From positions 221,573 to 285,572 of IMG/VR virus record IMGVR_UViG_3300021520_000002: 64,000 nucleotides of DNA; one strand, given 5' to 3'. Shown piece by piece: positions 22,639 to 42,079 of this stretch (positions are counted from its first letter, which is position 1; every line of letters starts with the position of its first letter). The stretch is from a virus. A program made the translations under genes and the position numbers. The notes under the pieces were generated by a model. It did not search any database, was not told the DNA's origin, and saw only the letters and a list, made by a program, of their open reading frames with translations.

Positions 22639-22668
22639 AGGAGTCTACCATTTAAGATAGACTCCTGA
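22639..22668 (-). terminator. hairpin terminator of a short transcript
   Basis: 10-bp perfect stem CAGGAGTCTA / TAGACTCCTG with a 10-nt loop; on the minus strand a U-rich stretch follows. It would end a transcript of about 160-190 nt starting at the promoters at 22829-22886. Confidence 0.7.
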
Positions 22669-22749
22669 TTTGTACATCAACCATTTTCCATTTTTTGTAT
22701 AAAATTTTATTTTTAAATAATATTTCAAATTAAAATCTTTTTAATTAGT

Positions 22750-22791
22750 TCAATGAACTGGGTACCATGTTACAGAATAACTACTTTCCAT
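22750..22791 (-). CDS. possible 13-residue leader peptide
   Basis: A tiny frame (MESSYSVTWYPVH) with an unusually strong ribosome site, GGAGGAAGG, just upstream. It lies in the short transcript between the promoters at 22829-22886 and the hairpin at 22639-22668. It may be a leader peptide, or the ribosome site may be fortuitous. Confidence 0.35.
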   Translation of the reverse strand: MESSYSVTWYPVH

Positions 22792-22828
22792 TTAGCCCTT
22801 CCTCCTTTTTTGAGTTTTGCTACATTCA

Positions 22829-22856
22829 ATTATTTCTATATTAAATAACTGAATAT
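22829..22856 (-). promoter_or_regulatory. phage promoter
   Basis: Minus-strand TTCAG, 6 nt, TTAATATAGAAATAAT. Feeds the short unit ending at 22639. Confidence 0.65.
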
Positions 22857-22861
22857 ACAAA

Positions 22862-22886
22862 TTAATTTCTATATGAAATGATTAAA
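22862..22886 (-). promoter_or_regulatory. phage promoter, second copy
   Basis: Minus-strand TTTAA, then CATTTCATATAGAAATTA; tandem with the copy at 22829-22856. Confidence 0.6.
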
Positions 22887-22991
22887 TATTAACTTTATTT
22901 GAACTGAATAATTTCAACTTTTTAAATATAAAGTTTAAATTAATCTGAACAATATGTATATAGAATTGAATAAGAAAAAATAATGTTCATC

Positions 22992-23008
22992 TTTAATATA
23001 GAAATAAT
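22992..23008 (+). promoter_or_regulatory. phage promoter on the plus strand
   Basis: TTTAATATAGAAATAAT in plus orientation. It opens rightward transcription in the divergent control region. Confidence 0.6.
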
Positions 23009-23044
23009 ACTCAAAAAGAAAAAGTGGGAAGGGATAAAAAAAGT

Positions 23045-23255
23045 AATGGTTATAAAGAGTAAGTCAATAATGTTGTTCATGTCTATCAACATTAACTATA
23101 CTCTTCCATATAAAACTTCGATTGTTATTATCTGTAGATTCGACTGCCATGCTATCCTTTCTTTAAGAAACAGATTCAGAAAAGAACCAAAGAATTTCAG
23201 TAATTTCTATTTGAAGATACAGATAAAAGATTCAACTTCAAAATCATTTGGTTAG
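23045..23255 (+). CDS. doubtful small gene downstream of a plus promoter
   Basis: A 69-residue frame (MVIKSKSIMLFMSININYT...) ending TAG, with GGAAGGGA about 12 nt upstream and a plus-strand promoter 40 nt before it. A 28-residue frame on the opposite strand (23064-23150, MAVESTDNNNRSF..., ribosome site AAAGGA) competes. I cannot decide which, if either, is translated. Confidence 0.3.
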
Positions 23256-23286
23256 GAATTTCAAAAACTATTCCTTAATTTATTTA

Positions 23287-23301
23287 CGGCCGGCGCGCGA
23301 G
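23287..23301. other. isolated G+C-rich spot
   Basis: CGGCCGGCGCGCGAG stands in very AT-rich DNA between the doubtful gene and the next promoter. It contains overlapping palindromes (CGGCCG, GCCGGC, GCGCGC). It may be a protein-binding or processing site; nothing further can be said. Confidence 0.4.
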
Positions 23302-23328
23302 CTAAAAATAGTAAAAATAATTTTTCTA

Positions 23329-23346
23329 TTTTCCTATAGAAATAAT
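23329..23346 (+). promoter_or_regulatory. phage promoter for the zinc-ribbon gene
   Basis: TTTTCCTATAGAAATAAT in plus orientation, about 118 nt before the ATG at 23464. Confidence 0.6.
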
Positions 23347-23366
23347 AATTTTGTAAAAAGTGAAAT

Positions 23367-23448
23367 GTTGACATCGATGTGCCTATCAATGTCAGCGGCT
23401 AACTCTTATCGTCTTTAAATAAAAAAGATCATTAGACGATTGATCTAA
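23367..23448 (+). promoter_or_regulatory. structured 5' leader with alternative hairpins
   Basis: The leader can form GACAT...ATGTC, then either TCGTCT...AGACGA or GATCA...TGATC; the last two are mutually exclusive because they share bases. This lies just before the AGGAGG ribosome site of the gene at 23464, so a regulatory leader is possible. Confidence 0.4.
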
Positions 23449-23463
23449 AAAACAGGAGGTAGT

Positions 23464-24309
23464 ATGGTGTATAAAGAACGCTTTATAGCTGTTGTTAAGG
23501 TTAATGGTTCTATCTTACGGGAAAGAGGAGAATCAAGAGATGAAGTTTATATCCCATTTGGTAGTGAATATTCTCTACTTCTTAAAAATAAGGAAAGTAG
23601 AAAAGCACAAGTTCAAGTTCAGATTGATGGGGTGGATGTTCTTGGTGGAAATTCATTAGTTTTAGAACCATTCCAAGAAATGGAACTTGAAAGATTTCTT
23701 GATAGTTGTAATATGAGTCAAGGAAATAAATTCAAATTTATTCAGAAGACTCAACAAATAGTTGAACATCGTGGAGATAAAATTGATGATGGATTCATAA
23801 CAGTTATATTTCAGTTTGAAGCTGAAAAACCTGAAAAGAAAATTGTTGAAGAACATCATCATCATACTTATCATGATCATTATCCGTGGAGAGTATATCC
23901 AACATATTATAGTAGTAATCCAGTTTTCACATCTGGATTAACTAGAGGCAGTTGTACTGGTGAAAATCTTGGTGGAGTTTTTTCTTCCAATATTTCATCT
24001 AATATTTCTGATTCAATACAAGTTAATTCTTGTAATTTTGCCGATATTAAACAAGCACCAATAATTGATCAAGATGAAGGAATAACTGTTAAAGGGAGTA
24101 TTTCTAATCAACAATTTAGATATGCTTATATCGGCAGATTGGAAGAAAATTCTCATACAATTAACATTAGATTGAAAGGAACAAAATCTAATGGTGTTGT
24201 TGTTGATCAACCAATAACAGTTAAAACTAAGTTAGAATGTAAAACTTGCGGAAAGAAGTCTAATTCTAATGAAAAGTTTTGTTCCAATTGTGGAACATTT
24301 TTAAATTAA
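23464..24309 (+). CDS. protein with His-rich linker and C-terminal zinc ribbon
   Basis: 281 residues, start after AGGAGGT. The N-terminal half is beta-rich (YIPFGSEYSLLLKNKESRKAQVQVQIDG), like a small jelly-roll. A His-rich stretch (EEHHHHTYHDHYP, about 133-145) follows, then a second beta region. The C-terminus is a zinc ribbon (CKTCGKKSNSNEKFCSNCG, about 259-277). The mix of binding modules suggests a structural or scaffold role; no function is recognised. Confidence 0.75.
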   Translation: MVYKERFIAVVKVNGSILRERGESRDEVYIPFGSEYSLLLKNKESRKAQVQVQIDGVDVLGGNSLVLEPFQEMELERFLDSCNMSQGNKFKFIQKTQQIVEHRGDKIDDGFITVIFQFEAEKPEKKIVEEHHHHTYHDHYPWRVYPTYYSSNPVFTSGLTRGSCTGENLGGVFSSNISSNISDSIQVNSCNFADIKQAPIIDQDEGITVKGSISNQQFRYAYIGRLEENSHTINIRLKGTKSNGVVVDQPITVKTKLECKTCGKKSNSNEKFCSNCGTFLN

Positions 24310-24344
24310 AATAGAGTAAGCTGATAATTGATGGGCACATTTTT

Positions 24345-24364
24345 CTAATTGTATATAGAAATGG
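24345..24364 (+). promoter_or_regulatory. phage promoter
   Basis: CTAATTGTATATAGAAATGG on the plus strand, about 20 nt before the ATG at 24385. A weaker match: the 3' AAT is replaced. Confidence 0.5.
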
Positions 24365-24384
24365 TAGTTTTGGAGGCGGAAAAA

Positions 24385-26079
24385 ATGGATATAGAAATAA
24401 ATAATATGCATGTTTTTGTTAGTAACTATTCTTTTACCGGAGTAGTTAAAACATCACTTGTAAAGGATTTTCATTTATTAAAACTTAAAATTGAATTTTT
24501 TAAAATTTTAAGTAATGATAGTAAAATAATTTCAATGATATCAAAGACTTGTCAAGAAGATCCAAGAAACGGTAACTCTTTAGGACTTGTAAGTACAAAA
24601 GTTGATTATGAAAAAGTTTTGAATTTTTATGATGCGGAAGAATTTAGAAATTATTTGCATTTTATAACGGCAAGACCATTCTTAGATGATAAAGTTAATG
24701 GTCAGTTATGGACAATTGAATTTAAATTTCAGAATGATGTACATTATTATAAGGTGTTATTAAGTACAAATGAAGTGTTAAGATTATATAATGTTGTTAA
24801 TTCTTATTATTCTCTTTATTTTGCTTTAGATTTTATTGTAAAAGAACATTCAAATCTAGCTCCAGTAGAAAAAGTTGAAGAGAAAAAAATAACAGAATAT
24901 ATTCCAAGCAGAAAAGAAGTTGTTGAAGAAAAATTTGAAGTTAAGGAGAGAAATGGAACAGATGATATTTTTGAATTATGTTTAACAAATTCAATTAAGT
25001 CAAGCTTGATTCATTATACAACCAATTATTTTAAATTCTTTTCATCAGAACATTGTAAGATTGTTACTAATGATCAGAAGACACAAATTAAAGTAGTTTG
25101 TCCGATATTAATTCCTGGAAAGTTTAATATTGATGAGAACTATTTTAAATCTTTAATTGTGACATCATCATTACATTTGGATAGTATAACTTTTACAATT
25201 AAGAAGATTTTATCTTTGCTATTACAGAGTTATGATAAATATAATAATCCTCTACATTTAATGATGATTAGTTATTTATTATTTGTATATATGTTAAGAT
25301 ATATTTATGATGTGAACAGAGATATATTTAGAGATTATTTTACTAAATTTATTTGTGTTCCAGAGATGCAGAGACATTTAATTATGAATTTAATTCGTAA
25401 TAATTTTTCGGATTATCACAATAAAATCTTCTTTGATTTTATAGCTGTTAATCCTCAGGATATTATGAATGAACAGACAAATAAAGAAATAAACACATTT
25501 TCTGAAACTTATAAACATCTTCTTCCGATTTCACAAGAAGAATTTGCCGATAAAGTATTCAATAGTCTTAATGGTCAAAATAAAAAATTTCCTGTTGACT
25601 TTAAAATAGCCAACAAGAAAATGATAGACATTAAAAATCTATTTGAAGAGAAACCAAAACAAACATTACAATCAAAATTGTTTGATTATGAAGGAACATT
25701 AGATACAACAGCTGGAATATTTAATGAATATACTTTTTTAAATTATACAAAGAATAATGGAAGTAAAATTATAAGTAAAACATATAAACATCTTTTAGAT
25801 TATATTCAGAATCCATCTTCTCTTCTATTAATGAATGAAAAAGATGTGCCAAAAGATGTTCTTAATTTATTTGATTTACTTTCAAAATCAGTTCTAAATA
25901 CAGAGAAATTAGCTAAGGATAATATATCAACATTAAATTATTATAATATATTAGTTGAATCTTTGCCGAATGCAAATTTATTTAAACATACAACTTTATT
26001 ATATGTTGTATATCAAATCATGGTACCTTATTATTATGATGTCTATGGTACAACACAATTTTATGATAATTTTTTATAG
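24385..26079 (+). CDS. large hypothetical protein ending in TAG
   Basis: 564 residues from MDIEINNMHVFV, the ATG after GGAGGCGG; a start 36 nt upstream lies in the promoter. The N-terminal 150 residues look like a beta-rich domain (VFVSNYSFTGVVKTSL); a charged linker (about 165-205, EKVEEKKITEYIPSRKE) leads to a long helical domain. No enzyme motif is visible. TAG is followed in frame by GAG ATG TAA. First gene of an operon with the two downstream genes. Confidence 0.75.
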   Translation: MDIEINNMHVFVSNYSFTGVVKTSLVKDFHLLKLKIEFFKILSNDSKIISMISKTCQEDPRNGNSLGLVSTKVDYEKVLNFYDAEEFRNYLHFITARPFLDDKVNGQLWTIEFKFQNDVHYYKVLLSTNEVLRLYNVVNSYYSLYFALDFIVKEHSNLAPVEKVEEKKITEYIPSRKEVVEEKFEVKERNGTDDIFELCLTNSIKSSLIHYTTNYFKFFSSEHCKIVTNDQKTQIKVVCPILIPGKFNIDENYFKSLIVTSSLHLDSITFTIKKILSLLLQSYDKYNNPLHLMMISYLLFVYMLRYIYDVNRDIFRDYFTKFICVPEMQRHLIMNLIRNNFSDYHNKIFFDFIAVNPQDIMNEQTNKEINTFSETYKHLLPISQEEFADKVFNSLNGQNKKFPVDFKIANKKMIDIKNLFEEKPKQTLQSKLFDYEGTLDTTAGIFNEYTFLNYTKNNGSKIISKTYKHLLDYIQNPSSLLLMNEKDVPKDVLNLFDLLSKSVLNTEKLAKDNISTLNYYNILVESLPNANLFKHTTLLYVVYQIMVPYYYDVYGTTQFYDNFL

Positions 26080-26090
26080 GAGATGTAATT

Positions 26091-26675
26091 ATGATTATAG
26101 ATGATATGACTATTTATAATAGTGTAGTAGATAGAGATAGAATGAGATCTTTAGCTGAAAAATTAGAAAAAGTTAAAGATCTTGCCGGTGGAGTATGTGA
26201 AGTTGGAGTGTATAGAGGTGGAACGGCAAGATTATTATGTTTAAACACTAATGAAAAAGTATTTCTTATAGATACTTTTGAGGGATTACCACAGGAATGT
26301 GAATTTGATAATCATCACAGAAAAGGTGAATTTAATAACACATCGATTGAACATATTAAAAATATTTTATCTGATTTATCTAATTATGAAATAATTAAAC
26401 AAGAATTTCCTAAAGGTGACACATCTAAACTTGATAATTTAAAATTTAAATTTGTTCATCTCGATGTTGATTTATATGAATCTGTAAAAAATTGTTTAGA
26501 ATATTTTTATCCTAAAATGGTTGATGGTGGATATATAATTTTTGATGATTATGGTTGGTTTCTTTGTCTTGGAGCAAAGAAGGCTGTTGATGAATTTTTT
26601 GTTGAATTAAAAGAAAAACCAGTTCAAGGAGCTAATTGTCAATACTATATTATAAAAGAAGGTGAAAAATGTTAA
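26091..26675 (+). CDS. TylF/MycF-like methyltransferase
   Basis: 194 residues. GVCEVGVYRGGTARLL (about 34-49) is the SAM-binding glycine loop, KVFLIDTFEGLP (about 57-68) and FVHLDVDLYES (about 123-133) carry the acidic residues of the TylF macrocin O-methyltransferase family, and GGYIIFDDYGW (about 147-157) the metal-binding DD. Family members methylate sugar hydroxyls using SAM and Mg. In a phage this could modify glycans or a hypermodified base. Overlaps the next gene. Confidence 0.85.
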   Translation: MIIDDMTIYNSVVDRDRMRSLAEKLEKVKDLAGGVCEVGVYRGGTARLLCLNTNEKVFLIDTFEGLPQECEFDNHHRKGEFNNTSIEHIKNILSDLSNYEIIKQEFPKGDTSKLDNLKFKFVHLDVDLYESVKNCLEYFYPKMVDGGYIIFDDYGWFLCLGAKKAVDEFFVELKEKPVQGANCQYYIIKEGEKC

Positions 26676-26869
26676 AAGAGATAAAAGAAAATCGAAAATA
26701 TTTTATTATAAATTTAGATGAAAGTTATGCGCCAAAAATATTTCAAGTTTTGAAAGAAGAAGAAATGAAAGCTGGTAGATGGCCAGAAGGTGATATTACA
26801 TTTGAACAATGGATTTTTGATACTTATGGTCAAGAAGGACTAGATTATTTAAAGTTTAATAAAGTTTGA
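26669..26869 (+). CDS. small hypothetical protein
   Basis: A 66-residue protein (MLKEIKENRKYFIINLDESY...) whose start overlaps the end of the methyltransferase gene by 7 nt. Mixed alpha/beta, acidic. Its position suggests a partner of the methyltransferase, without direct evidence. Confidence 0.65.
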   Translation: MLKEIKENRKYFIINLDESYAPKIFQVLKEEEMKAGRWPEGDITFEQWIFDTYGQEGLDYLKFNKV

Positions 26870-26870
26870 T

Positions 26871-26894
26871 ATTCAATGAATTTATATAGAAATT
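26871..26894 (+). promoter_or_regulatory. phage promoter for thioredoxin
   Basis: TTCAA, 5-6 nt, TTATATAGAAATTA on the plus strand. The leader of about 140 nt to the ATG at 27039 can pair CAAAAGA with TCTTTTG. Confidence 0.65.
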
Positions 26895-27038
26895 AAATGG
26901 TATAGAAAGATAAAAAATATAAAGGATTTTTCGTGACGTATTTTTTGGTCATGTTTTTTCTTTCTGGACAAAAGATTTTGTGAAGTGTTGTAAGATATTT
27001 TACAAAGTCTTTTGTTTGTATTCTTTTTTGGGGGTTTT

Positions 27039-27356
27039 ATGAAAGAATTAAATGATGATAATTTTGCTGAAGAAGTATATACAACTAAAAAACCAATATT
27101 AATTGAGTTTATGGCTCAATGGTGTGTAGTATGTAGAGAATTTGATAAGAAATTGGAACAACTAAAAAAAATTTATGGTGATAAAGTTGTGTTTGCAAAA
27201 GTTGATATAGATGAGAGTTTTAGATTATCATCTGGATTTAATATTGATAAATTACCAACATTTATTTTATACTATAAAAGAGAACCTATGAACTTTATTA
27301 TTGGAGCGGCAAATTTGTCAGAATTTAAAACTGCTATTGATGAAGTTATAAACTAG
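27039..27356 (+). CDS. thioredoxin-like protein
   Basis: 105 residues from MKELNDDNFAEEV, the usual thioredoxin length; nine upstream residues in the same frame have no ribosome site. WCVVC (28-32) is the redox-active CxxC, and KLPTF (about 76-80) has the cis-Pro. It could reduce a phage ribonucleotide reductase or other dithiol partners. Ends TAG at the normal C-terminus of the fold, evidence that TAG acts as a stop here. A hairpin follows. Confidence 0.92.
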   Translation: MKELNDDNFAEEVYTTKKPILIEFMAQWCVVCREFDKKLEQLKKIYGDKVVFAKVDIDESFRLSSGFNIDKLPTFILYYKREPMNFIIGAANLSEFKTAIDEVIN

Positions 27357-27387
27357 CTAATACCTCTTTCCATTTTTTCTCCTTCCT

Positions 27388-27418
27388 TAGGGGTGATAGC
27401 TTTTCCACTATCACCCTA
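27388..27418 (+). terminator. hairpin after the thioredoxin gene
   Basis: TAGGGGTGATAG / CTATCACCCTA stem with one bulged G, 31 nt after the thioredoxin stop. The U-tract is weak; it probably acts together with the next hairpin. Confidence 0.6.
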
Positions 27419-27420
27419 CT

Positions 27421-27597
27421 TTAAACAAATAAAAAACTGGCATTACGTTCTCGATATGAGTCGCGTAATGCCAATTTGTTTTGTTTTCTGTTGTAGCCCT
27501 TCTTCCCCTTTTTAGAGGTTTGAGGTCCACCATGTGAAGAGATATAAAGGACTTCCTCAACAATTCGCCGATGTTTCAGTTTCTTTTCTTTTTTCAT
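27421..27597 (-). CDS. small basic protein whose 3' end contains a terminator
   Basis: A 58-residue, very basic protein (MKKEKKLKHRRIVEEVLYIS...) starting after GGAGG, ending TAA. Its last third is the bidirectional hairpin at 27438-27473, so coding and termination signals overlap. Likely nucleic-acid binding by charge; function unknown. Confidence 0.6.
   Translation of the reverse strand: MKKEKKLKHRRIVEEVLYISSHGGPQTSKKGKKGYNRKQNKLALRDSYRERNASFLFV
27438..27473. terminator. bidirectional terminator
   Basis: Perfect 10-bp stem TGGCATTACG / CGTAATGCCA, with T-runs on both sides (ATTTGTTTTGTTTT rightward, GTTTTTTATTTG leftward). It separates the convergent thioredoxin and minus-strand units. 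Confidence 0.8.
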
Positions 27598-27772
27598 AAT
27601 TATCCTCCATTATCATTTTACTTACAATTGCACATTTATGTTTTTGAACTAAACGAAATTCTTTATGAACTTCTTTGTGTATTTTAGTAGTTTTCTTTTT
27701 TTGAGAAAAACTAACATAAATAACTTTTGGTTTAGGAGTCCAATCTATTATTTCTTCCTCTTCTTCAATCAT
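27557..27772 (-). CDS. small hypothetical protein
   Basis: A 71-residue protein, acidic start (MIEEEEEIIDWTPKP) and very basic middle (QKKKTTKIHKEVHKEFR). Ribosome site GGGGGA; promoter at 27804-27827 directly upstream. It overlaps the next gene by 41 nt. Confidence 0.62.
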   Translation of the reverse strand: MIEEEEEIIDWTPKPKVIYVSFSQKKKTTKIHKEVHKEFRLVQKHKCAIVSKMIMEDNYEKRKETETSANC

Positions 27773-27803
27773 GTATCCCCCTTTTTTATAGTTTTATAAA
27801 TAT

Positions 27804-27827
27804 ATTATTTCTATATTAAAATGAAGA
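27804..27827 (-). promoter_or_regulatory. phage promoter
   Basis: Minus-strand CTTCATTTTAATATAGAAAT followed by AAT, leading directly to the gene at 27772. Confidence 0.65.
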
Positions 27828-27909
27828 AAAAACAAAAGGGTCAAGATTTCATGAGCGCGCCCCTTTGCGATACTTCAATCCATATAACCTCCTTGGCCAC
27901 TAGGCCATT

Positions 27910-28122
27910 TTACATAGCTCTTACACAGGTTCCAGCCATTCCACAAACGGAACAGCTTATACCAAGTGAACATCTCGTTTTCTTTTTCGGACGAGTCTTG
28001 TGCAGAACGTCGTTGAAATATTTTCGAGATTTATGTTCAGTTTCAGCCGCTTTGTGTATTTCTACACTTAAAAAAGCGTTCTGAAGCTTACGAGCCAAAG
28101 TTGAATCTTGTAAAATTTGCAT
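27910..28122 (-). CDS. small zinc-finger protein, G+C-rich
   Basis: 70 residues from an ATG after AGGAGGAG. CSLGISCSVCGMAGTC (about 51-66) provides four Cys for a zinc site; the N-terminal 45 residues are helical and basic. The DNA is less AT-rich than its neighbours, so it may be an acquired gene. The opposite-strand frame here has no ribosome site. About 80 nt without a clear gene follow before the promoter at 27804. Confidence 0.68.
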   Translation of the reverse strand: MQILQDSTLARKLQNAFLSVEIHKAAETEHKSRKYFNDVLHKTRPKKKTRCSLGISCSVCGMAGTCVRAM

Positions 28123-28151: not shown

Positions 28152-28177
28152 ATTATTTCTATATGAAATCTTTAAAA
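28152..28177 (-). promoter_or_regulatory. phage promoter
   Basis: Minus-strand TTTAAAGATTTCATATAGAA followed by ATAAT. Drives the gene at 28122, 30 nt downstream. Confidence 0.7.
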
Positions 28178-28193
28178 ATAAAAACAAACAAAA

Positions 28194-28328
28194 TTTTCAT
28201 ATGATACGAATATCACATGAAAATCTTGCCGGTAGAACAATTTCTTAAACCAGCAAGTGGTTCAGAACAGGAACATCTACAGCCTACTGTAGCGTCCTTC
28301 AACTAAAGGTTACCCTTTAATCTATACT
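28194..28328 (-). ncRNA. small RNA E, paralogue of the RNA at 28384-28516
   Basis: About 135 nt between a promoter (28331-28355) and a strong terminator (28194-28223: 13-bp stem with a UUCG loop, then a long U-tract). In order on the minus strand: hairpin AAAGG-GTAA-CCTTT (28305-28318), core GGACGC-UACAG-loop-CUGUA-GAUGUUCC (28270-28297), hairpin GAACC/GGTTT (28247-28263), terminator. No convincing reading frame. The core and order match the neighbouring RNA. Confidence 0.75.
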
Positions 28329-28355: not shown

Positions 28356-28383
28356 TATCAAAAAAAGAAAATAAACAAAGAAC

Positions 28384-28516
28384 TTATGTGATATAAATAT
28401 CACATAAATCCTTCGCCAGTCGGAGCAAAACTTTTTTCCCGTGAGGGAATTAGTTAGGAGCATCCAAAGCTTTCTTTGGCGTCCCTTAGATATACATTAC
28501 TGTATATCTTACATTA
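28384..28516 (-). ncRNA. small RNA D, paralogue of the RNA at 28194-28328
   Basis: About 133 nt between a promoter (28519-28544) and a terminator (28384-28407: perfect 10-bp stem TTATGTGATA / TATCACATAA, then U-rich). In order: hairpin GATATAC/GTATATC (28489-28508), core GGACGC-CAAAG-loop-CUUUG-GAUGCUCC (28457-28485), hairpin TTCCC-TCAC-GGGAA (28436-28449), terminator. The core stem differs from RNA E at two base pairs, both compensated (C-G to U-A, A-U to C-G). Confidence 0.78.
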
Positions 28517-28518
28517 AT

Positions 28519-28544
28519 ATAATTTCTATATTAAAATCGCAAAT
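28519..28544 (-). promoter_or_regulatory. phage promoter of small RNA D
   Basis: Minus-strand TTTGCGATTTTAATATAGAA followed by ATTAT. Points away from the methyltransferase gene at 28570. Confidence 0.65.
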
Positions 28545-28569
28545 ATCAAAAAAAGAAAAAAGGAGAAAA

Positions 28570-29073
28570 ATGAACGAGTTTGTACACAACAGTGTTAGAG
28601 ATTTATTTGTCAACAAATATTTAGTATCAAAAAAAGAAGAGAAGTTATTAATTATTGATATTGGAAGTTATGATGTAAATGGTAACATAAGAGATTTATT
28701 TGATGTAAGTAAGAAATGGGGTTATTTTGGAGTAGATATTGAAGCAGGTCCAAATGTTGATATTATTTTAAGAAATCAATATATATTTTATGAATTTGGA
28801 GATTATCAAGTAGATGTAGTTGTATCTTGTTGTACATTTGAACATATTGGTTTGTTTTGGTTAACTATGAAAGAAATAAGTAGAATTTTAAAAGTAGGTG
28901 GATATTGTTGTATTGTAGCTCCATTTGATTGGGAAGAACACAAACATCCAATTGATTGTTATAGATTTTATCCAGATGGATTTAAAGCTTTAGCTGAATG
29001 GTCTGGATTAAAAACTATTGAAACATCTACTATGGCTGATAAACATCATACAATTTTTATCGGCCAAAAATAG
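28570..29073 (+). CDS. class I SAM-dependent methyltransferase
   Basis: 167 residues from MNEFVHNSVRDLF, the ATG after AGGAG. LIIDIGSYDVNG (about 28-39) is the SAM-binding loop, FGVDIEAGPNVD (about 56-67) the acidic loop, and VVVSCCTFEHIG (about 91-102) plus LKVGGYCCIVAPF (about 114-126) the later Rossmann strands of the methyltransferase type 11 group. Substrate unknown. TAG stop, followed in frame by TAA 15 nt later, before the next gene. Confidence 0.85.
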   Translation: MNEFVHNSVRDLFVNKYLVSKKEEKLLIIDIGSYDVNGNIRDLFDVSKKWGYFGVDIEAGPNVDIILRNQYIFYEFGDYQVDVVVSCCTFEHIGLFWLTMKEISRILKVGGYCCIVAPFDWEEHKHPIDCYRFYPDGFKALAEWSGLKTIETSTMADKHHTIFIGQK

Positions 29074-34337: not shown

Positions 34338-34362
34338 ATTATTTCTATATGAAATCATAAAA
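34338..34362 (-). promoter_or_regulatory. phage promoter
   Basis: Minus-strand TTTATGATTTCATATAGAAA followed by TAAT, 28 nt before the ATG at 34310. Confidence 0.7.
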
Positions 34363-34365
34363 AAC

Positions 34366-34426
34366 AAAAAGTGGGATCGCTCCAACTTTTTGCTAGATAG
34401 GGCTGTTATAGCTCAACTATCTACCT
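34366..34426 (-). ncRNA. short non-coding transcription unit (about 60 nt)
   Basis: Between the promoter at 34429-34453 and the next promoter. It holds a TAGATAG/CTATCTA hairpin (34394-34423) and a terminator-like hairpin AAAAAGT-GG / CC-ACTTTTT (34366-34391) followed by a U-tract on the minus strand. No reading frame of note. Confidence 0.6.
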
Positions 34427-34428
34427 AT

Positions 34429-34453
34429 ATTATTTCTATATGAAATCTTTAAA
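34429..34453 (-). promoter_or_regulatory. phage promoter of a short RNA unit
   Basis: Minus-strand TTTAAAGATTTCATATAGAA followed by ATAAT; identical over the core to the copy at 28152-28177. Confidence 0.7.
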
Positions 34454-34462
34454 AATAAAAAT

Positions 34463-36557: not shown

Positions 36558-36793
36558 ACTATAAGAAAGTGAAGTCGATCTGGATTATCATCACATGGTA
36601 CCGGCAAATGATTTTTAAAGATCATTCTCTTTTCGTCTACTTCACGAGCTACAAAAGTCCATCCAGCTTCAGTTCCAGATGGATTTAATCTATTACAGAC
36701 TTCAAGAATTTCCTCATCAGTTACATCTTTAACAGCACACACTTGCATCATTGTTAATCCATAAACGTATTTAGTAATTTCAACTCTACCCAT
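36551..36793 (-). CDS. conserved small protein of unlike base composition
   Basis: 80 residues. MQVCAVKDVTDEEILEVCNRLNPSGTEAGWTFVARE and the ending CDDNPDRLHFLIVC look strongly conserved, and the DNA is less AT-rich than its neighbours. From memory it resembles an uncharacterised family of broad occurrence; no function is known to me. GGAG precedes the start. Confidence 0.72.
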   Translation of the reverse strand: MGRVEITKYVYGLTMMQVCAVKDVTDEEILEVCNRLNPSGTEAGWTFVAREVDEKRMIFKNHLPVPCDDNPDRLHFLIVC

Positions 36794-36947
36794 CTGTCTT
36801 CTCCTCTTTTTTTCTAATTTTTGTAACTAAATCTTTTTGACAATCTTCCCAAAGTCCTTTAGCTCTAAGCCAAACAATTATCTGATCGAGAAGTCGTTCT
36901 TTCAGATCCATTTCAAGGATTATGTCCATTTCTTCTTTATTTGGCAT
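36786..36947 (-). CDS. small charged protein ending in TAG
   Basis: 53 residues from MPNKEEMDIILEMDLKERL, the ATG after GGAG. Contains IIVWLRAKGLWEDCQKDL. TAG stop overlaps the next start. Function unknown. Confidence 0.62.
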   Translation of the reverse strand: MPNKEEMDIILEMDLKERLLDQIIVWLRAKGLWEDCQKDLVTKIRKKEEKTDG

Positions 36948-37374
36948 CTTTCTTCTCCTTTTTATTTCTGGATTTTTTAATAACTTTATCAATAATTTCT
37001 ATAACTTCTGGATCTTTTTTAATAACTTCATCATCTGAAACATTTGCTCTATTTAAAACTGAATCTGGTGGTTTATTAAACATTATATTAGATTGGGCTT
37101 GTTGATATGGATCTTTTGGTAGATTTTTAAAACCATTCATTTTCATTTCTGATTTTTCTTTTTGATTACCAATAATAGCTTCACACCTACTTTCTAAAAT
37201 TTCTCTTAGTTCTTGAAAAGATTTTGCCGATAAACTATTACCAGTATTTACACCACCCAAACCATATACCATTCTGCTTACTGCTTTTTCAATAGTAATA
37301 ACTTTATCTGTGAAATGAATTTCTACAACATGATCTAAATTCAATATTTTGTCATTAATCATTATTAAGTTCAT
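36937..37374 (-). CDS. hypothetical protein
   Basis: 145 residues. N-terminal domain resembling a small beta-barrel (MINDKILNLDHVVEIHFTDKVITIE), then a Gly-rich loop and a basic helical tail (KKSRNKKEKKDAK). Ribosome site GGAG. Function unknown. Confidence 0.66.
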   Translation of the reverse strand: MNLIMINDKILNLDHVVEIHFTDKVITIEKAVSRMVYGLGGVNTGNSLSAKSFQELREILESRCEAIIGNQKEKSEMKMNGFKNLPKDPYQQAQSNIMFNKPPDSVLNRANVSDDEVIKKDPEVIEIIDKVIKKSRNKKEKKDAK

Positions 37375-37426
37375 ATCTTCTCCTTTTATTTTTATTTATA
37401 TTTAAAGATAGAAATGAAGAAGCGCT

Positions 37427-37585
37427 TTACGCGCTCTTCCCAAATTGGTATTCAACAAATACCAGTTTGTCTACTACCATGTCAATCCCATATTTTGGGA
37501 TCAACAACCCGATTTCATTTTCTATCATTTTCTTCGGTACTTTGCTTTTGAACAAATTTTTGATTCTTTCAATTTCCTGTTCCAT
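37427..37585 (-). CDS. small hypothetical protein
   Basis: 52 residues (MEQEIERIKNLFKSKVPKKM...), start after GGAGG, TAA stop lying inside a GC-rich hairpin (37417-37439) that probably terminates the unit. Its promoter is at 37623-37646. Function unknown. Confidence 0.66.
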   Translation of the reverse strand: MEQEIERIKNLFKSKVPKKMIENEIGLLIPKYGIDMVVDKLVFVEYQFGKSA

Positions 37586-37622
37586 AATTAACTTCCTCCT
37601 TTGAATTTAATAGATACTATAT

Positions 37623-37646
37623 CTATTTCTATATGAAGAAGTTGAA
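37623..37646 (-). promoter_or_regulatory. phage promoter
   Basis: Minus-strand TTCAACTTCTTCATATAGAA followed by ATAG; leader of about 38 nt to the ATG at 37585. Confidence 0.7.
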
Positions 37647-37663
37647 TATACAAAAAAAGAAAA

Positions 37664-37682
37664 AAGGGGTTGTTACACCCCT
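37664..37682 (-). terminator. terminator hairpin overlapping a stop codon
   Basis: AAGGGG / CCCCTT stem with a short loop that includes the TAA of the gene ending at 37673; followed by a long T/A-rich stretch on the minus strand. Confidence 0.75.
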
Positions 37683-38065
37683 TGTGCTCCAAAATTTGGA
37701 AGCTCTTTCTGGACTTGAGCAAGAATCTGTTCAACATCCACTCCTCTTCCATAGTTATTGATTGCAGAGAGAAGATCTTCTTCTTCAAGAAAACCTAGTT
37801 GAACACCTCTTAACATTGCAACCATTTTTGTTAGATCCTCTCTACAAACATCCTTATACAACATCCAGATTTTACTACCATAGATGTTCAGAGTATCAAG
37901 CATCATTAAAGACCCGAGTCCGCCGAAAAAATCATCCGGATCGATTTTTCCAGCCCTTGTGAGTAAATCTAGAGTGACTCTAAAAGCACCTGGATTTCCT
38001 TCTGCTACTTTTATAACAGCATCTTGAAATGAATCTGTTCCTACAATTCTTGTATTTTTGTTCAT
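37673..38065 (-). CDS. conserved hypothetical protein of unlike base composition
   Basis: 130 residues from MNKNTRIVGTDSF after GGAG. VAEGNPGAFRVTLDLL (about 20-35) and IYGSKIWMLYKDVCREDL (about 61-78) are strongly conserved-looking. The DNA is richer in G+C than its surroundings. From memory it resembles a widespread uncharacterised family with the same GNPGA and GS.IW..YKD..G.D motifs. Single-gene unit with promoter (38093-38115) and terminator. Confidence 0.75.
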   Translation of the reverse strand: MNKNTRIVGTDSFQDAVIKVAEGNPGAFRVTLDLLTRAGKIDPDDFFGGLGSLMMLDTLNIYGSKIWMLYKDVCREDLTKMVAMLRGVQLGFLEEEDLLSAINNYGRGVDVEQILAQVQKELPNFGAQGV

Positions 38066-38092
38066 AACTCCTCCTTTTATTTTTGATATTAT

Positions 38093-38115
38093 ATTATTTC
38101 TATATAAGATTGAAG
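38093..38115 (-). promoter_or_regulatory. phage promoter
   Basis: Minus-strand TTCAATCTTATATAGAAATA followed by AT; 28 nt before the ATG at 38065. Confidence 0.7.
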
Positions 38116-38132
38116 AATAATAAAAAATAAAG

Positions 38133-38164
38133 ATCGGCAAGATCTATTGCTAAATCTTGCCGAT
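38133..38164 (-). terminator. terminator hairpin, ATCGGCAAGAT family
   Basis: Perfect 11-bp copy (ATCGGCAAGAT / ATCTTGCCGAT) after the gene ending at 38169 and before the promoter at 38093-38115. Confidence 0.85.
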
Positions 38165-38168
38165 ATTT

Positions 38169-38342
38169 TTAATAGTCTATATACTCTTTTAACTGTCTAT
38201 TTCTATTAAAGGAACTTTCATCTGTATCTCTTACAAAAACATCATCATTTAAACGATTTAACGCGGCTTCACTAATACAATCATCAAATCTTGTTTTCAA
38301 CATTAAATCAACAACATCTTTGTACCCTTTTTTAGATTTCAT
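38169..38342 (-). CDS. small hypothetical protein
   Basis: 57 residues (MKSKKGYKDVVDLMLKTRFD...), charged and helical, ending TAA 4 nt before the terminator. Ribosome site AAGGAG. Function unknown. Confidence 0.62.
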   Translation of the reverse strand: MKSKKGYKDVVDLMLKTRFDDCISEAALNRLNDDVFVRDTDESSFNRNRQLKEYIDY

Positions 38343-38373
38343 TTAGTTCTCCTTTATTAGTTTTTTGCTGATA

Positions 38374-38886
38374 TCAAACTTTAGTATTAACTTTAAAACC
38401 TTTGATTTTCATCTTTCTACATTTTTCAAATACACCATTTAAATTATTATTTTTATTTTCTCTAATAATTTCAATAACATCACTATCAGGTAATAAATAT
38501 TGTAATGCTTCAATTGAAGCTACAACTAAATCTTTATCAGTTTCTTCAATTAATATTTCTTTCCAGAATTGAACAGCTCTTTCAATTCTATGATCAATAG
38601 GTTTAAATTTTCTACCTTTTAGCGGCATATGATTTGGATTTTCTTCTAATGAAAGCATAGGTAAATCATGAACATTTATTTTACCAGATGGACTTTTTTC
38701 AAACAATGAATGTACAAAATCACCAAAAGCATCTATAGGACTATATTCTTTTGATCTACTATCTCCTGGTGAAGGAATTATAACTGGTTCTATTTCATAA
38801 TCACTGATGCTATTTATAAAACTTCTTAACTTATATGTATCACATTCATCTTTCTTTGGACATATTTCACATTTTTCTATATCCAT
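38374..38886 (-). CDS. protein with N-terminal Cys cluster
   Basis: 170 residues. CEICPKKDEC (6-15) resembles the Cys clusters of the multi-Cys protein at 31486. The rest is acidic/mixed with a likely helical domain (RAVQFWKEILIEETDKDLVVASIEALQYLLP). Function unknown. Confidence 0.67.
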   Translation of the reverse strand: MDIEKCEICPKKDECDTYKLRSFINSISDYEIEPVIIPSPGDSRSKEYSPIDAFGDFVHSLFEKSPSGKINVHDLPMLSLEENPNHMPLKGRKFKPIDHRIERAVQFWKEILIEETDKDLVVASIEALQYLLPDSDVIEIIRENKNNNLNGVFEKCRKMKIKGFKVNTKV

Positions 38887-38887
38887 T

Positions 38888-39076
38888 TTATCCCTCCGTT
38901 AATTCATAAAATATTGAATGACAATTTGGACAACTGAATAGTTGTTTATTATCATATACTACATTCATACTTCTATAATCTAATTTACCGTGAGAGTATT
39001 GACCTCTACTTACTAATTCTATTAGTGGTTCTCCTTTCTCTTTACATACTGGACACTGAAATTTTTCTCTGTCCAT
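38888..39076 (-). CDS. zinc-ribbon protein
   Basis: 62 residues with CPVC (8-11) and CPNC (about 49-52) flanking a beta-rich middle: a classic small zinc ribbon. Start after GGAGG. Function unknown. Confidence 0.72.
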   Translation of the reverse strand: MDREKFQCPVCKEKGEPLIELVSRGQYSHGKLDYRSMNVVYDNKQLFSCPNCHSIFYELTEG

Positions 39077-39086
39077 TATTCCTCCT

Positions 39087-39488
39087 CTAATTCATCATGT
39101 GACGACTAAATAACATATCGTCAATTTTAATATTTTTAATTTTTCCATCTGACTTAAAAGTATAGTGTCTCTGATACTTTAACAGATCATTTTGAATGTA
39201 TTTTCCTTGTTCAGAAAGTGACATATTTTCAAATTTTCTTCTTTCCAGATCCATTCCTGTTTTGATTAAATCTTTAAAGTCCTCTTTTATAGGATTATAA
39301 CCAATTACAGTAACATATCTTTTGAATATTTTTTCAAGTTCTTCATCAGATTTTGCCGAATCAAATTGTCCAAGAATAATATAGAAGAAACTATTTAAAA
39401 AATTAAGATGGGATTTTCTCATTTTACTACAATCCAATCCACCTTCTTCTTCTAGTTTTATAAGTTGTTTAAGTCTTTTTTGATTCAT
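39087..39488 (-). CDS. hypothetical protein ending in TAG
   Basis: 133 residues, helical, acidic/basic mixed (IKLEEEGGLDCSKMRKSHLNFLNSFF...). TAG lies next to the GGAGG of the following gene, not in frame with it. ATGA overlap on the upstream side. Function unknown. Confidence 0.65.
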   Translation of the reverse strand: MNQKRLKQLIKLEEEGGLDCSKMRKSHLNFLNSFFYIILGQFDSAKSDEELEKIFKRYVTVIGYNPIKEDFKDLIKTGMDLERRKFENMSLSEQGKYIQNDLLKYQRHYTFKSDGKIKNIKIDDMLFSRHMMN

Positions 39489-39667
39489 TTTTTCTCCATT
39501 AATTTAAAAGCAACATAAACCCAACCAATAATGAAAACAATTATTCCAACAGGTATTAAAATATCATAAATTAATATTTTAGATGTTATAGCTACTATCT
39601 GTGTAATTATAATGATCGTTGTTATTATTGGAAGTATAAGCATTATTCTTCCTATCCATCTTTTCAT
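39485..39667 (-). CDS. small two-helix membrane protein
   Basis: 60 residues from MKRWIGRIMLILPIITTII after GGAG. Two transmembrane helices (about 7-27 and 34-54), basic N-terminus, KLMEKK tail. ATGA overlap with the next gene. Function unknown. Confidence 0.66.
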   Translation of the reverse strand: MKRWIGRIMLILPIITTIIIITQIVAITSKILIYDILIPVGIIVFIIGWVYVAFKLMEKK

Positions 39668-39677
39668 TTTTTCTCCT

Positions 39678-39989
39678 TTAAGAAGCATATGCTAAATGTA
39701 ACCATGAATCTGATAAATATGGATTTGAAGTTCCTGATGTTCTTATAGCACTATATTTAGATGTATTTGCAACAGCAGCTGTATATACAACTGTATATGT
39801 ATATGAATAATATGTTTGCATTGAAGATCTATATCGATCTCCAGTGACTTCTCCATTTTCAATCACTCTATAATGAATATGACTACAATGAGGACATTTA
39901 ATTTCATGATTTCCATTTAATCCAAAATCAAGCTTAGCTATAAAATCTTTACCACAACCATGACAATATAGATCAGTTGGAACTATCAT
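39678..39989 (-). CDS. zinc-ribbon protein with Tyr/Ser/Thr-rich tail
   Basis: 103 residues: CHGC (9-12) and CPHC (about 32-35) form a zinc ribbon; the C-terminal half is low in charge and rich in Tyr, Thr and Ser (MQTYYSYTYTVVYTAAVANT). First gene after the terminator at 40004. Function unknown. Confidence 0.68.
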   Translation of the reverse strand: MIVPTDLYCHGCGKDFIAKLDFGLNGNHEIKCPHCSHIHYRVIENGEVTGDRYRSSMQTYYSYTYTVVYTAAVANTSKYSAIRTSGTSNPYLSDSWLHLAYAS

Positions 39990-40003
39990 TATTTCTCCTT
40001 TTT

Positions 40004-40036
40004 ATCGGCAAGATCTTTAAATTAGATCTTGCCGAT
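40004..40036 (-). terminator. terminator hairpin, ATCGGCAAGAT family
   Basis: Long perfect 13-bp stem (ATCGGCAAGATCT / AGATCTTGCCGAT) with a 7-nt loop, between the genes ending at 40043 and starting at 39989. Confidence 0.88.
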
Positions 40037-40042
40037 ATTGAT

Positions 40043-40285
40043 TTATTCTCCTTGAACCATTACTACTTTAAGTAATCTTTCTAAAATCATACTTATATGT
40101 GAACCAATCGATAAATCATCTTCTGCTATTTCTTCAACTCGTAAACCATCACAATATACTACAAATTTTAGCTTTCTCCATTCAAATATAACTGATTCTT
40201 TATTAATAGCTATTATTGTTACAGATTCTGGATATGGTATACTTTTAATAACTAAAGTAATAATTTTTTCTGGTGTTCTGATCAT
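40043..40285 (-). CDS. small hypothetical protein
   Basis: 80 residues with several alternating hydrophobic strands (ESVTIIAINKESVIFEWRKLKFVVYCDG). Ribosome site GGAG. Function unknown. Confidence 0.64.
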   Translation of the reverse strand: MIRTPEKIITLVIKSIPYPESVTIIAINKESVIFEWRKLKFVVYCDGLRVEEIAEDDLSIGSHISMILERLLKVVMVQGE

Positions 40286-40297
40286 TTATTTTTCTCC

Positions 40298-40498
40298 TTA
40301 CTGATGATTTTCCATAAATTCATGAATTGTATCTCTTGCTAAACTTAAAGCATCTGGATGTGCATCTCCAGAACTAATAACTAAATTTAATAAATCATAA
40401 ATTGGTTCTAATAATCCATTAATATCATTTAACAAATCAATTTTTTCCTCTGAACATTTTCCTTTTTGTTTTACTGGTACTACACCATCTGGTTTCAT
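40298..40498 (-). CDS. small hypothetical protein
   Basis: A 66-residue protein, helical with acidic patches (LLNDINGLLEPIYDLLNLVISSGDAHP). Ribosome site GGAG. Function unknown. Confidence 0.62.
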   Translation of the reverse strand: MKPDGVVPVKQKGKCSEEKIDLLNDINGLLEPIYDLLNLVISSGDAHPDALSLARDTIHEFMENHQ

Positions 40499-40499
40499 A

Positions 40500-40679
40500 T
40501 TATTTCTCCTTTTTACATTCTGTTATTATTGATAATTCTAAATTAAGTAGATCAATTTCAGTTCTAAGAGCGTATACTCTTATATCTGTTGATAATAAAT
40601 CATTATTTTTAATTGTTGTGATAAATTTTGACATTTTTTCTAATTCTGCTAATGTTTTCTCCATATGTTCCAGTGTCAT
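40500..40679 (-). CDS. small helical protein
   Basis: 59 residues (MTLEHMEKTLAELEKMSKFI...), all helical, beginning with an ATGA overlap on the upstream gene and ending TAA. A frame partly covering it on the same strand has no ribosome site and is a shadow. Function unknown. Confidence 0.62.
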   Translation of the reverse strand: MTLEHMEKTLAELEKMSKFITTIKNNDLLSTDIRVYALRTEIDLLNLELSIITECKKEK

Positions 40680-40843
40680 TCTTCTTTCTCCTGTGGAATA
40701 TTTGGAAGTCTAAACCACTCTTTTCTTTCATCATTAGCAGACCACATTGTTCCGTCATCACATAACGCATAAACAATAATTCCTGGATAACGTTCTTTTG
40801 AATTTGGTATATGTACACAAAACATTTGTATTGGCTTTCTCAT
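40676..40843 (-). CDS. small hypothetical protein
   Basis: 55 residues (MRKPIQMFCVHIPNSKERYP...) after GGAG; beta-rich with IIVYALCDDGTMWSANDERKEW. TGA overlaps the next start. Function unknown. Confidence 0.62.
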   Translation of the reverse strand: MRKPIQMFCVHIPNSKERYPGIIVYALCDDGTMWSANDERKEWFRLPNIPQEKEE

Positions 40844-40857
40844 ATTTTCTCCTTTTT

Positions 40858-40889
40858 ATTAGTAAGATCTATTGCTAAATCTTGCCGAT
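40858..40889 (-). terminator. degenerate terminator, ATCGGCAAGAT family
   Basis: The right arm is intact (ATCTTGCCGAT) but the left arm is altered (ATTAGTAAGAT for ATCGGCAAGAT), so the stem is shortened. Either a decaying copy or a weakened terminator allowing read-through. Confidence 0.6.
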
Positions 40890-40893
40890 ATTA

Positions 40894-41106
40894 TTAATAA
40901 GTTCTAATAAACTCTAACATCTTATTTCCTGATTTAAAGCAAATACATGTTTTACTACCCATTGGTATTCTTCTATTAATTAAATACACAGGACATTTAT
41001 TATTACATGAACCATGTTCACTACAACAAATTTCAAACAATTCTTCAGCTAATTCATCATCTGTTATTTCTTCTTTCTTTATTACTTTCATTAAAAGATG
41101 TACCAT
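40894..41106 (-). CDS. small Cys-rich protein
   Basis: 70 residues with CCSEHGSCNNKCPVY and a later CIC, similar to the Cys modules of neighbouring genes (C..C..C-P). Ribosome site GGAG. Function unknown. Confidence 0.66.
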   Translation of the reverse strand: MVHLLMKVIKKEEITDDELAEELFEICCSEHGSCNNKCPVYLINRRIPMGSKTCICFKSGNKMLEFIRTY

Positions 41107-41117
41107 TTTATTTCTCC

Positions 41118-41438
41118 TTATTCATAGAATTTTATTTTCTTCCAGTTCTTTTTTCTTTTTCCTATAAATGGTGGATCATATTGTTTTACAGCTTTATATT
41201 CAATTTCAATAACTTCTTGTTTAAGTTTAGTAGTATCTCCATCATGTTCAATATCTTTCTCCCTAATTCTTCTAACTATAACTTCTGGAGAAATTTCTAA
41301 TACTATATATTCATTTTTACTTACAATGAGATCCTTTTTTATTGATTCTTGAATACATTTTACAAGAGGTCCCATATTTGATTCTAATTTTTTAACATCT
41401 ATTTCTTCACCATTGTCATCTACGATAAGAGTTTTCAT
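41118..41438 (-). CDS. hypothetical protein
   Basis: 106 residues with a beta-rich middle (NEYIVLEISPEVIVRRI) and a basic C-terminus. Precedes the Cys-rich small gene. Function unknown. Confidence 0.64.
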   Translation of the reverse strand: MKTLIVDDNGEEIDVKKLESNMGPLVKCIQESIKKDLIVSKNEYIVLEISPEVIVRRIREKDIEHDGDTTKLKQEVIEIEYKAVKQYDPPFIGKRKKNWKKIKFYE

Positions 41439-41575
41439 TTGAACCTTCTTTTTATTTTTATATTATAGTAAATTAAATATATTGCAGAACAAACCATTGC
41501 ACCTACATAAATATACCAATATTCTTTAAGAAATTCAATTCTCCAGATAGTGTATTCTATTAACCAGTCTATCAT
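41435..41575 (-). CDS. small membrane protein
   Basis: 46 residues (MIDWLIEYTIWRIEFLKEYW...) with one likely transmembrane helix at about 20-38 and a basic tail (KIKRRFK). TGA overlaps the next start. Ribosome site GGAG. Function unknown. Confidence 0.62.
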   Translation of the reverse strand: MIDWLIEYTIWRIEFLKEYWYIYVGAMVCSAIYLIYYNIKIKRRFK

Positions 41576-41588
41576 ATGTTTCTCCTTT

Positions 41589-41750
41589 TTAAAATAGTTT
41601 TTCTAAGTTGAGTAATTTTATTATTATCATACTATATATTGCTCCTATAATAAATGCTAAAAAACCTATCCAAAAACCATATTCAAAACAATTAGTACTT
41701 AATATTGAAATTGGAAATAATATCATTATAAGTCCTATGTGATTTCTCAT
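41589..41750 (-). CDS. small two-helix membrane protein
   Basis: 53 residues (MRNHIGLIMILFPISILSTN...) with two hydrophobic helices (about 5-18 and 24-46). Ribosome site GGAG. It follows the hairpin at 41782-41803 and the promoter at 41814-41838. Function unknown. Confidence 0.62.
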   Translation of the reverse strand: MRNHIGLIMILFPISILSTNCFEYGFWIGFLAFIIGAIYSMIIIKLLNLEKLF

Positions 41751-41781
41751 TTGTTTCTCCTTTTGTTTTTAAAATTAAAAT

Positions 41782-41803
41782 AAAGCTGGAAAATTCCAAC
41801 TTT
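41782..41803 (-). terminator. hairpin just downstream of a promoter
   Basis: AAAG-CTGGAA / TTCCA-CTTT stem with one mismatch, followed on the minus strand by a U/A-rich stretch. It lies only about 10 nt after the start implied by the promoter at 41814-41838, so it may be an attenuator before the membrane-protein genes. Confidence 0.55.
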
Positions 41804-41813
41804 ATTATTCTAT

Positions 41814-41838
41814 ATTATTTCTATATGAAATCAAGAAA
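41814..41838 (-). promoter_or_regulatory. phage promoter
   Basis: Minus-strand TCTTGATTTCATATAGAAAT followed by AAT; the third tandem promoter of this cluster, nearest the genes at 41750 and below. Confidence 0.65.
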
Positions 41839-41856
41839 AAATAAAAACAAAAAGAG

Positions 41857-41954
41857 TCTGGATATGTTAACGCTCATATCCAGATTTCGTTAGTAAGTGT
41901 AATTGATTGTGCCTGATTCAATCAATTACAGTCGCTTAACGCTTCTTTCTATTA
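41857..41954 (-). ncRNA. short non-coding transcription unit with two strong hairpins
   Basis: About 97 nt from the promoter at 41957-41981. A 12-bp stem TGTAATTGATTG / CAATCAATTACA (41898-41930) is followed by a 10-bp terminator stem TCTGGATATG / CATATCCAGA (41857-41884) and a long U-tract on the minus strand. The octamer AGCGTTAA occurs both in the 5' region and in the terminator loop. No reading frame. Confidence 0.68.
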
Positions 41955-41956
41955 TT

Positions 41957-41981
41957 ATAATTTCTATATGAAATGTTTAAA
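41957..41981 (-). promoter_or_regulatory. phage promoter
   Basis: Minus-strand TTTAAACATTTCATATAGAA followed by ATTAT; starts the unit ending at 41857. Confidence 0.68.
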
Positions 41982-41988
41982 AACAAAA

Positions 41989-42051
41989 ACAGAAATCCGG
42001 GTTGCCCCGAATTCCTGTTTCCATCAAATCAAATCACTGTTCTATATATTA
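41989..42051 (-). ncRNA. short non-coding transcription unit with GNRA-loop terminator
   Basis: About 62 nt from the promoter at 42054-42079, ending in a 13-bp hairpin (ACAGGAATTCGGG / CCCGGATTTCTGT, 41989-42018, two G-U pairs) capped by the tetraloop GCAA and followed by a long U-tract. No reading frame. Confidence 0.68.
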
Positions 42052-42053
42052 TT

Positions 42054-42079
42054 ATAATTTCTATATGAAAAGCTTGAAA
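42054..42079 (-). promoter_or_regulatory. phage promoter
   Basis: Minus-strand TTCAAGCTTTTCATATAGAA followed by ATTAT; identical over 20 nt to the promoter of small RNA E at 28331-28355. Confidence 0.72.

Follow-up and report, generated by a model that had tools for sequence, protein, structure and literature searches.

A 64-kb stretch of the jumbo-phage record IMGVR_UViG_3300021520_000002 (positions 221573-285572 of 285,572 bp, hereafter the window) carries short cassettes between its operons in which a phage promoter meets a terminator hairpin before any gene. These cassettes, together with similar units elsewhere in the record, are best explained, with an estimated probability of about 0.62, as a set of early noncoding RNA genes, each transcribed independently and evolving fast, some of them probably acting on the host. 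The evidence comprises a shared promoter motif, the layout itself, folding of the transcribed bodies, compensatory changes between two tandem RNAs (A and B), recurrence of the layout in a relative, and the use of the same promoter class by tRNA genes. The phage has its own multisubunit RNA polymerase, with two window proteins matching beta-type subunits; identity to the best known phages, which include AR9 and other jumbo phages, is about 25%. A preliminary description of the window had listed eight such cassettes and proposed that they might yield short RNAs, serve as transcriptional insulators or act as decoys for the phage polymerase; the eight are several kinds of element and not one thing.

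The promoter is composed of a T-rich box followed by a TATAGAAAT core, about 6 nucleotides (nt) and a purine, and the motif is spread phage-wide. Its presence, as first described, was confirmed by counting: at up to one mismatch TATAGAAATNAT occurs at 30 sites in the window against 10.9 expected, a number reached in 0 of 100 shuffles. Over the whole record 50 exact sites were found, 44 on the minus and 6 on the plus strand (1 and 1 for the reversed control); 44 are located at 120-265 kb and 6 before 120 kb, a region that includes the terminase gene, whereas the region beyond 265 kb, with large virion-type genes, has none. A weight matrix built from 37 promoter sites revealed a second element, TTTWATWTTYAA, about 20 nt upstream, the order being TTTWATWTTYAA, about 8 nt, TTTCATATAGAAATWATA. 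Seventy-three TATAGAAAT places occur in the DNA examined (stretches around motif matches, not a census of the whole record), and the 51 that score at least 17 (range 17-41) are termed strong promoters. Eight promoters in the record are of a spacer variant, class B (TATAGAAATTAA), and A or G stands about 6 nt past the core in 8/8 of them and in 39/43 class A sites, on an A-rich background.

The motif has a single AT-rich core that is over-represented ahead of nonstructural operons, as expected of a jumbo-phage early promoter. In AR9 the early promoter is described as AAATATATATTAT-6N-G, an AT-rich core followed after 6 nt by the start (PMC5312081), and jumbo phages with their own polymerases are reported to place one AT-rich motif each, recognized by the virion polymerase, before their early operons (PMC7598289). 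As described in these sources, phiKZ-like and AR9-like early promoters share with the present motif the AT-rich core, the location mostly in nonstructural regions, the rule of one motif per phage and perhaps the distance of about 6 nt to a purine start (PMC7598289, PMC5312081); they differ in that here the core is TATAGAAAT and an extra T-rich box lies about 20 nt upstream. Because of this resemblance the TATAGAAAT motif is read as, and probably is, the early promoter of the phage. The same promoter class also heads tRNA genes, namely tRNA-Asn at record site 152801 and, in the relative G002, a tRNA cluster at site 276792. Cassettes stand behind 8/8 class B and 9/43 class A promoters (p = 4e-5), an association that is a lead only, as the cassettes were hand-labelled after viewing. 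A search with the full class B promoter pattern gave 0 matches, and a shortened pattern matched 4 unrelated contigs. The leader, of about 150 nt, of a gene judged by eye to be thioredoxin-like (window 26885-27356, plus strand) also has a class B promoter and a strong hairpin, this being one of the few plus-strand sites.

The layout is more frequent than composition predicts. A terminator-like hairpin precedes the first Shine-Dalgarno-led open reading frame (ORF) of at least 35 codons at 18/51 strong promoters, against 5.9 on average and at most 10 over 20 rounds of dinucleotide-shuffled leaders. About 5 of the 18 hairpins belong to the leader of a close gene (e.g., record 206695, 177749, 168027 and 263397, the last being window 41814), and the detector missed real cassettes at 191096, 192424 and 256012 (window 34429). 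In AR9 the same detector found a terminator before the first gene at 2/34 annotated promoters (Fisher p = 0.0016; 250,000 of 251,042 bases scanned, the two promoter sets having been chosen differently); nearly all of them lead straight to a gene, a difference from the phage studied here. One AR9 early promoter does head a unit, about 240 nt long, that contains a short ORF and a strong hairpin ahead of the gene at 182065 (KU878088, 181705-181960); as AR9 is in culture, this candidate for an early RNA belongs to a cultured phage.

Part of this layout has a simpler origin. A stem ends 16-34 nt upstream of 32/51 promoters, compared with 12/60 random positions, and at such junctions the terminator U-tract runs into the T-rich box of the next promoter; the terminator-promoter junction is thus a standard spacing module, and a cassette is the stretch between two junctions. 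The earlier argument that a layout shared by distant loci speaks for function was accordingly weakened, as ordinary spacing accounts for some of it. Taken further, cassettes could be remainders left by gene loss between two junctions, with the short RNA as a by-product, and the units at 34429 and 42054 agree with this in having almost nothing between promoter and terminator stem. Gene loss should, however, leave AT-rich unfolded remnants, as at 22829, where the guanine-plus-cytosine (GC) fraction is 0.25, whereas the bodies are in general GC-richer than the genome and folded well beyond their composition. Without their terminators, cassette bodies are more strongly folded than the first parts of gene transcripts (mean z -3.36, n = 15, vs -0.40, n = 25; p = 3e-5; 3 further bodies were too short), with GC 0.25-0.62 against 0.29. 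What stood of the earlier argument is this folded, GC-richer RNA between the junctions, recurring outside the window and in relatives, and spacing as a full account is considered unlikely. A near-identical terminator hairpin (GGCAAGATCT...AGATCTTGCC) was also seen to end several operons (window 13876-13908 and 42080-42125, among others) and is found in the relative G001 (L044).

RNAs A and B, at window 28519 and 28331 (Table 1), are arranged in tandem behind a divergent methyltransferase-like gene (ORF 28441-29073) and before a third promoter that serves a 70-aa ORF. Their alignment, with 80% mean column identity as scored over two rows, supports a common structure in which 42/42 pairs form in both RNAs, 13 of them changed on both sides and 0 broken, a result equalled in 0 of 500 shuffles; sliding the 3' side by 1-3 columns lowers pairing to 39-49%. 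Most of the compensatory changes (11/13) fall in helices P1 and P2 and in the terminator. That the two RNAs keep their helices while diverging also argues against spacing remnants. Structure maintained by such changes beyond the terminator was found at these two cassettes only, and a search of the phage's own record returned only A and B, which define a new two-member family.

Short RNAs, among the products first proposed, are accordingly supported at 28519, 28331 and 41957, where the bodies have z of -4.1, -2.1 and -4.6, with the common fold of A and B as additional evidence; for the RNA at 41957, with a body of 67 nt, folding is the one line of support. Decoys or sinks, in which the phage polymerase is held on short abortive units, would suit the strong promoters with very short products at 42054 and 34429 (scores 39.1 and 41.1). 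Neither a pure decoy nor a pure insulator predicts structured bodies or compensatory changes, and units of up to about 335 nt are likewise not expected of decoys, which makes this explanation of the folded cassettes hardly credible; a role as spacer or insulator may apply to 34429 and 42054, where the terminator stem follows after 28-30 nt.

The cassettes might alternatively be cis-acting leaders, their hairpins being attenuators or riboswitch-like elements that control the gene behind. This describes well the hairpins at 41814 and at record 206695, 177749 and 168027, which lie in the leader of a close gene, and it may extend to 22829, where a 13-codon ORF precedes the terminator. At 28519, 28331, 34429, 42054 and 41957, in contrast, the terminator is followed by a separate strong promoter for the next unit, as the preliminary description had noted in placing cassettes directly before another promoter, and no Rfam riboswitch was found at gathering score in the window or the loci searched; as a general account, leaders are quite improbable. 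The same five units have their own promoter and terminator and no ORF with a ribosome-binding site, and they stand as first described. The unit at 22829/22862 is real, and its unstructured body and AGGAGG-led ORF make it a mini-mRNA or a leader. Two places were removed from the list: 41814, as a gene leader, and 13922, because its promoter score is 6 (strong sites, 17-41), it has no upstream box and its hairpin lies directly before the Shine-Dalgarno sequence of the next gene.

Table 1. Cassettes and associated features. Coordinates are those of the window unless marked "record"; z, folding score.
Feature	Coordinates	Strand	Score or folding
Promoter of RNA A, upstream box TTTGATATTT and TATAGAAATTAT	28519..28550	-	matrix score 29.8
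Structured RNA A, predicted transcript; P1 28488-28509, P2 28456-28485	28365..28515	-	body z -4.07; pair counts in text
Terminator hairpin of RNA A, then U-tract	28377..28414	-	
Promoter of RNA B, class B core TATAGAAATTAA	28331..28362	-	score 37.6
Structured RNA B, predicted, paralogue of RNA A; P1 28301-28322, P2 28269-28298	28175..28327	-	body z -2.1
Terminator hairpin of RNA B; U-tract runs into box of next promoter	28190..28227	-	
Next promoter, serves 70-aa ORF 27910-28122	28152..28183	-	score 41.3
Promoter of structured RNA at 41857-41953	41957..41988	-	score 37.5
Structured RNA, predicted, one long internal hairpin; terminator 41857-41884	41835..41953	-	body z -4.60; fold z -6.12
Promoter of minimal cassette	42054..42085	-	score 39.1
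Minimal cassette, about 28 nt, then terminator hairpin 41988-42020	41980..42050	-	body too short for folding test
Promoter of minimal cassette	34429..34460	-	score 41.1
Minimal cassette, 30-nt body with short stem; terminator hairpin 34366-34391; next promoter 34338	34360..34425	-	body too short for folding test
Two overlapping promoters, cores 22829-22840 and 22862-22873	22829..22873	-	scores 29.0 and 29.1
13-codon ORF MESSYSVTWYPVH behind AGGAGG (Shine-Dalgarno)	22750..22791	-	body unstructured, z -0.35
Terminator hairpin of 22829/22862 unit	22637..22668	-	
Promoter and leader hairpin of gene starting at 41750; poor U-tract, not a separate cassette	41779..41825	-	
Weak promoter-like motif and operon-type terminator, not counted as cassette	13876..13933	-	score 6.0
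Larger structured unit	record 199071-198735		body z -4.65
Larger structured unit	record 198706-198480		body z -4.29
Larger structured unit	record 192424-192200		body z -2.35
Larger structured unit	record 191096-190850		body z -1.74
Larger structured unit	record 190029-189865		body z -4.55
Larger structured unit	record 189850-189585		body z -5.75
Smaller unit	record 177893		body z +0.11
Smaller unit	record 153035		body too short for folding test
Smaller unit, before tRNA-Asn promoter	record 152941		body z -1.97

Elsewhere in the record at least six larger structured units (about 150-335 nt) are headed by the same promoter. Compared with each other, the RNAs outside the window have nothing in common beyond terminators and short words, and those at 189-192 kb and 198-199 kb gave no match in phages. 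Window positions 22000-43000 had no near DNA match among 50,697 phage records, and close relatives sought with the RNA polymerase protein and with one local protein were not found. A search with the terminase gave one contig of 87.8 kb at 85%, and searching by terminase alignment gave 56 loci, mostly distant, and none in genome contigs. Four relatives from viral contigs were available for comparison: G001 (terminase 83-97% identity; a partial record of 87.8 kb), G010 (terminase 62-66%), G002 (terminase 51% and RNA polymerase 49% amino-acid identity; 314.8 kb) and G003 (RNA polymerase 45%). Against these four, the 189-192 kb stretch gave short matches, mostly at promoters.

Comparison with related phages, which had been suggested at the outset, supported the layout and not the individual RNAs. 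A terminator-like hairpin is met first at 9/43 promoters in G002, 3/9 in G003, 0/4 in G001 and 0/1 in G010, within the DNA examined. In G002 three consecutive cassettes of unrelated sequence (301357, 301582 and 301755; z -2.26, -3.63 and -8.17) precede two ORFs identified by eye, one small and zinc-ribbon-like and the other RNA-polymerase-like, and G003 has one cassette with a folded body of 232 nt (z -4.35); no homologue of RNA A or B was found in any of the four relatives. As a separate observation, the terminase gene of G001 (L147/L150) and G010 (L149/L169) is split near residue 190-205 by an insert of about 1 kb, a pattern as expected from a self-splicing intron, which is not present in the window phage or in G002.

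Known families offered no assignment. At gathering score Rfam 15 matched one tRNA in the window, outside the cassettes, and at E values up to 1 the search of 15 loci returned two tRNAs and sub-threshold matches, none but the tRNAs reaching gathering score. One of these, to the Moco riboswitch (E 0.013), lies at a convergent terminator and not in a cassette. The RNAs could also regulate phage mRNAs by antisense pairing close to the ribosome-binding sites. One start region in the window is perfectly complementary to RNA B over 12 nt, a length that 0 of 40 shuffles reached, although nine bodies were tested against the window start regions and the other eight did no better than shuffles; antisense action is regarded as very unlikely to explain the set.

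The independence of the units, their folding, the promoter use shared with tRNA genes and the covariation of A and B together speak for RNA genes whose products work in folded form. In the proposed scheme, the cassettes with folded bodies (28519, 28331, 41957 and at least six larger ones elsewhere) would be independent noncoding RNA genes, at which the phage's own RNA polymerase would start from an early-type promoter and an intrinsic terminator would stop the transcript about 60-335 nt later; the released RNAs would act in trans as folded molecules. The likeliest targets would be the machinery or the defences of the host as infection begins, each phage carrying its own quickly changing set. 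Since phages with proteins about 50% identical carry different RNA sets, conflict with the host fits better than a core function such as packaging, and a host-directed role is put forward by exclusion and by analogy.

Several observations weigh against RNA genes of this kind. The bodies at 177893, 191096, 152941 and 22829 are not significantly folded (z +0.11, -1.74, -1.97 and -0.35), and ORFs of 25-43 codons stand behind weak Shine-Dalgarno-like stretches inside 192424 and 191096. Covariation supports two RNAs only, since a homologue is known for A and B alone: blastn in the phage collection gave weak chance-level matches, a covariance model run over five records, including the four relatives, returned only A and B, and two viral-contig matches to an IUPAC pattern of these RNAs were GC-rich and were rejected as chance after inspection. 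Within A and B, the 4-pair helix P3 is uncertain, as a different helix can form there when RNA B is folded alone. The promoter is assigned to the early class by analogy, and the missing conservation of the RNAs could also mean weak selection.

GOLLD and ROOL are large folded RNAs of phages, often encoded near tRNA genes; the RNAs described here are much shorter and have no Rfam match. By 2021 only 21 noncoding RNAs had been described in phages (PMC8545117). In phiKZ, Grad-seq is reported to have yielded two short, folded noncoding RNA candidates of about 100 and 180 nt, one thought to be processed from a 3' untranslated region (UTR) and the other from a 5' UTR, neither predicted by start-site mapping (PMC8545117). 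These resemble the present RNAs as short folded RNAs encoded by a jumbo phage; here, in contrast, every predicted RNA stands behind a promoter of its own, and their number is much larger. Several unannotated RNAs per phage are also described for phiR1-37, with ten noncoding RNAs of which 9/10 are antisense (PMC4848604), and for phage K, with two long RNAs by tRNA genes and several small RNAs, some antisense; lnc001 of phage K has its own early promoter, and the available part of the latter report contains no promoter-RNA-terminator set (PMC9241854). RNA anti-CRISPRs (Racrs), described as small RNAs with which phages counter host defence by mimicking CRISPR repeats, are a functional parallel only (PMC10651486). 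A 2026 review of jumbo phages mentions noncoding RNAs once (PMC13282480), and a search of open-licence papers yielded no description of a promoter-RNA-terminator set of this kind.

One genome with a dozen or more such units, and a layout that recurs in the clade with unrelated RNAs, would make phage RNA effectors testable gene by gene, and it suggests a rule for finding them, namely to look for early promoters with a terminator between them and the first gene. On a broader and doubtful, though conceivable, view, this would be a jumbo-phage clade in which each genome has its own dozen or so unrelated folded RNAs, made by the virion-delivered polymerase in the first minutes, which disable or redirect host machinery or defences and evolve about as fast as anti-defence proteins.

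Two further observations concern the coding content of the window. A tRNA at 10482-10556 (minus strand) has the anticodon CTA and is a possible TAG suppressor. An ORF at 59336-63148 is open only with TAG read as sense (15 TAG) and overlaps a 707-aa ORF with a PHROG match.

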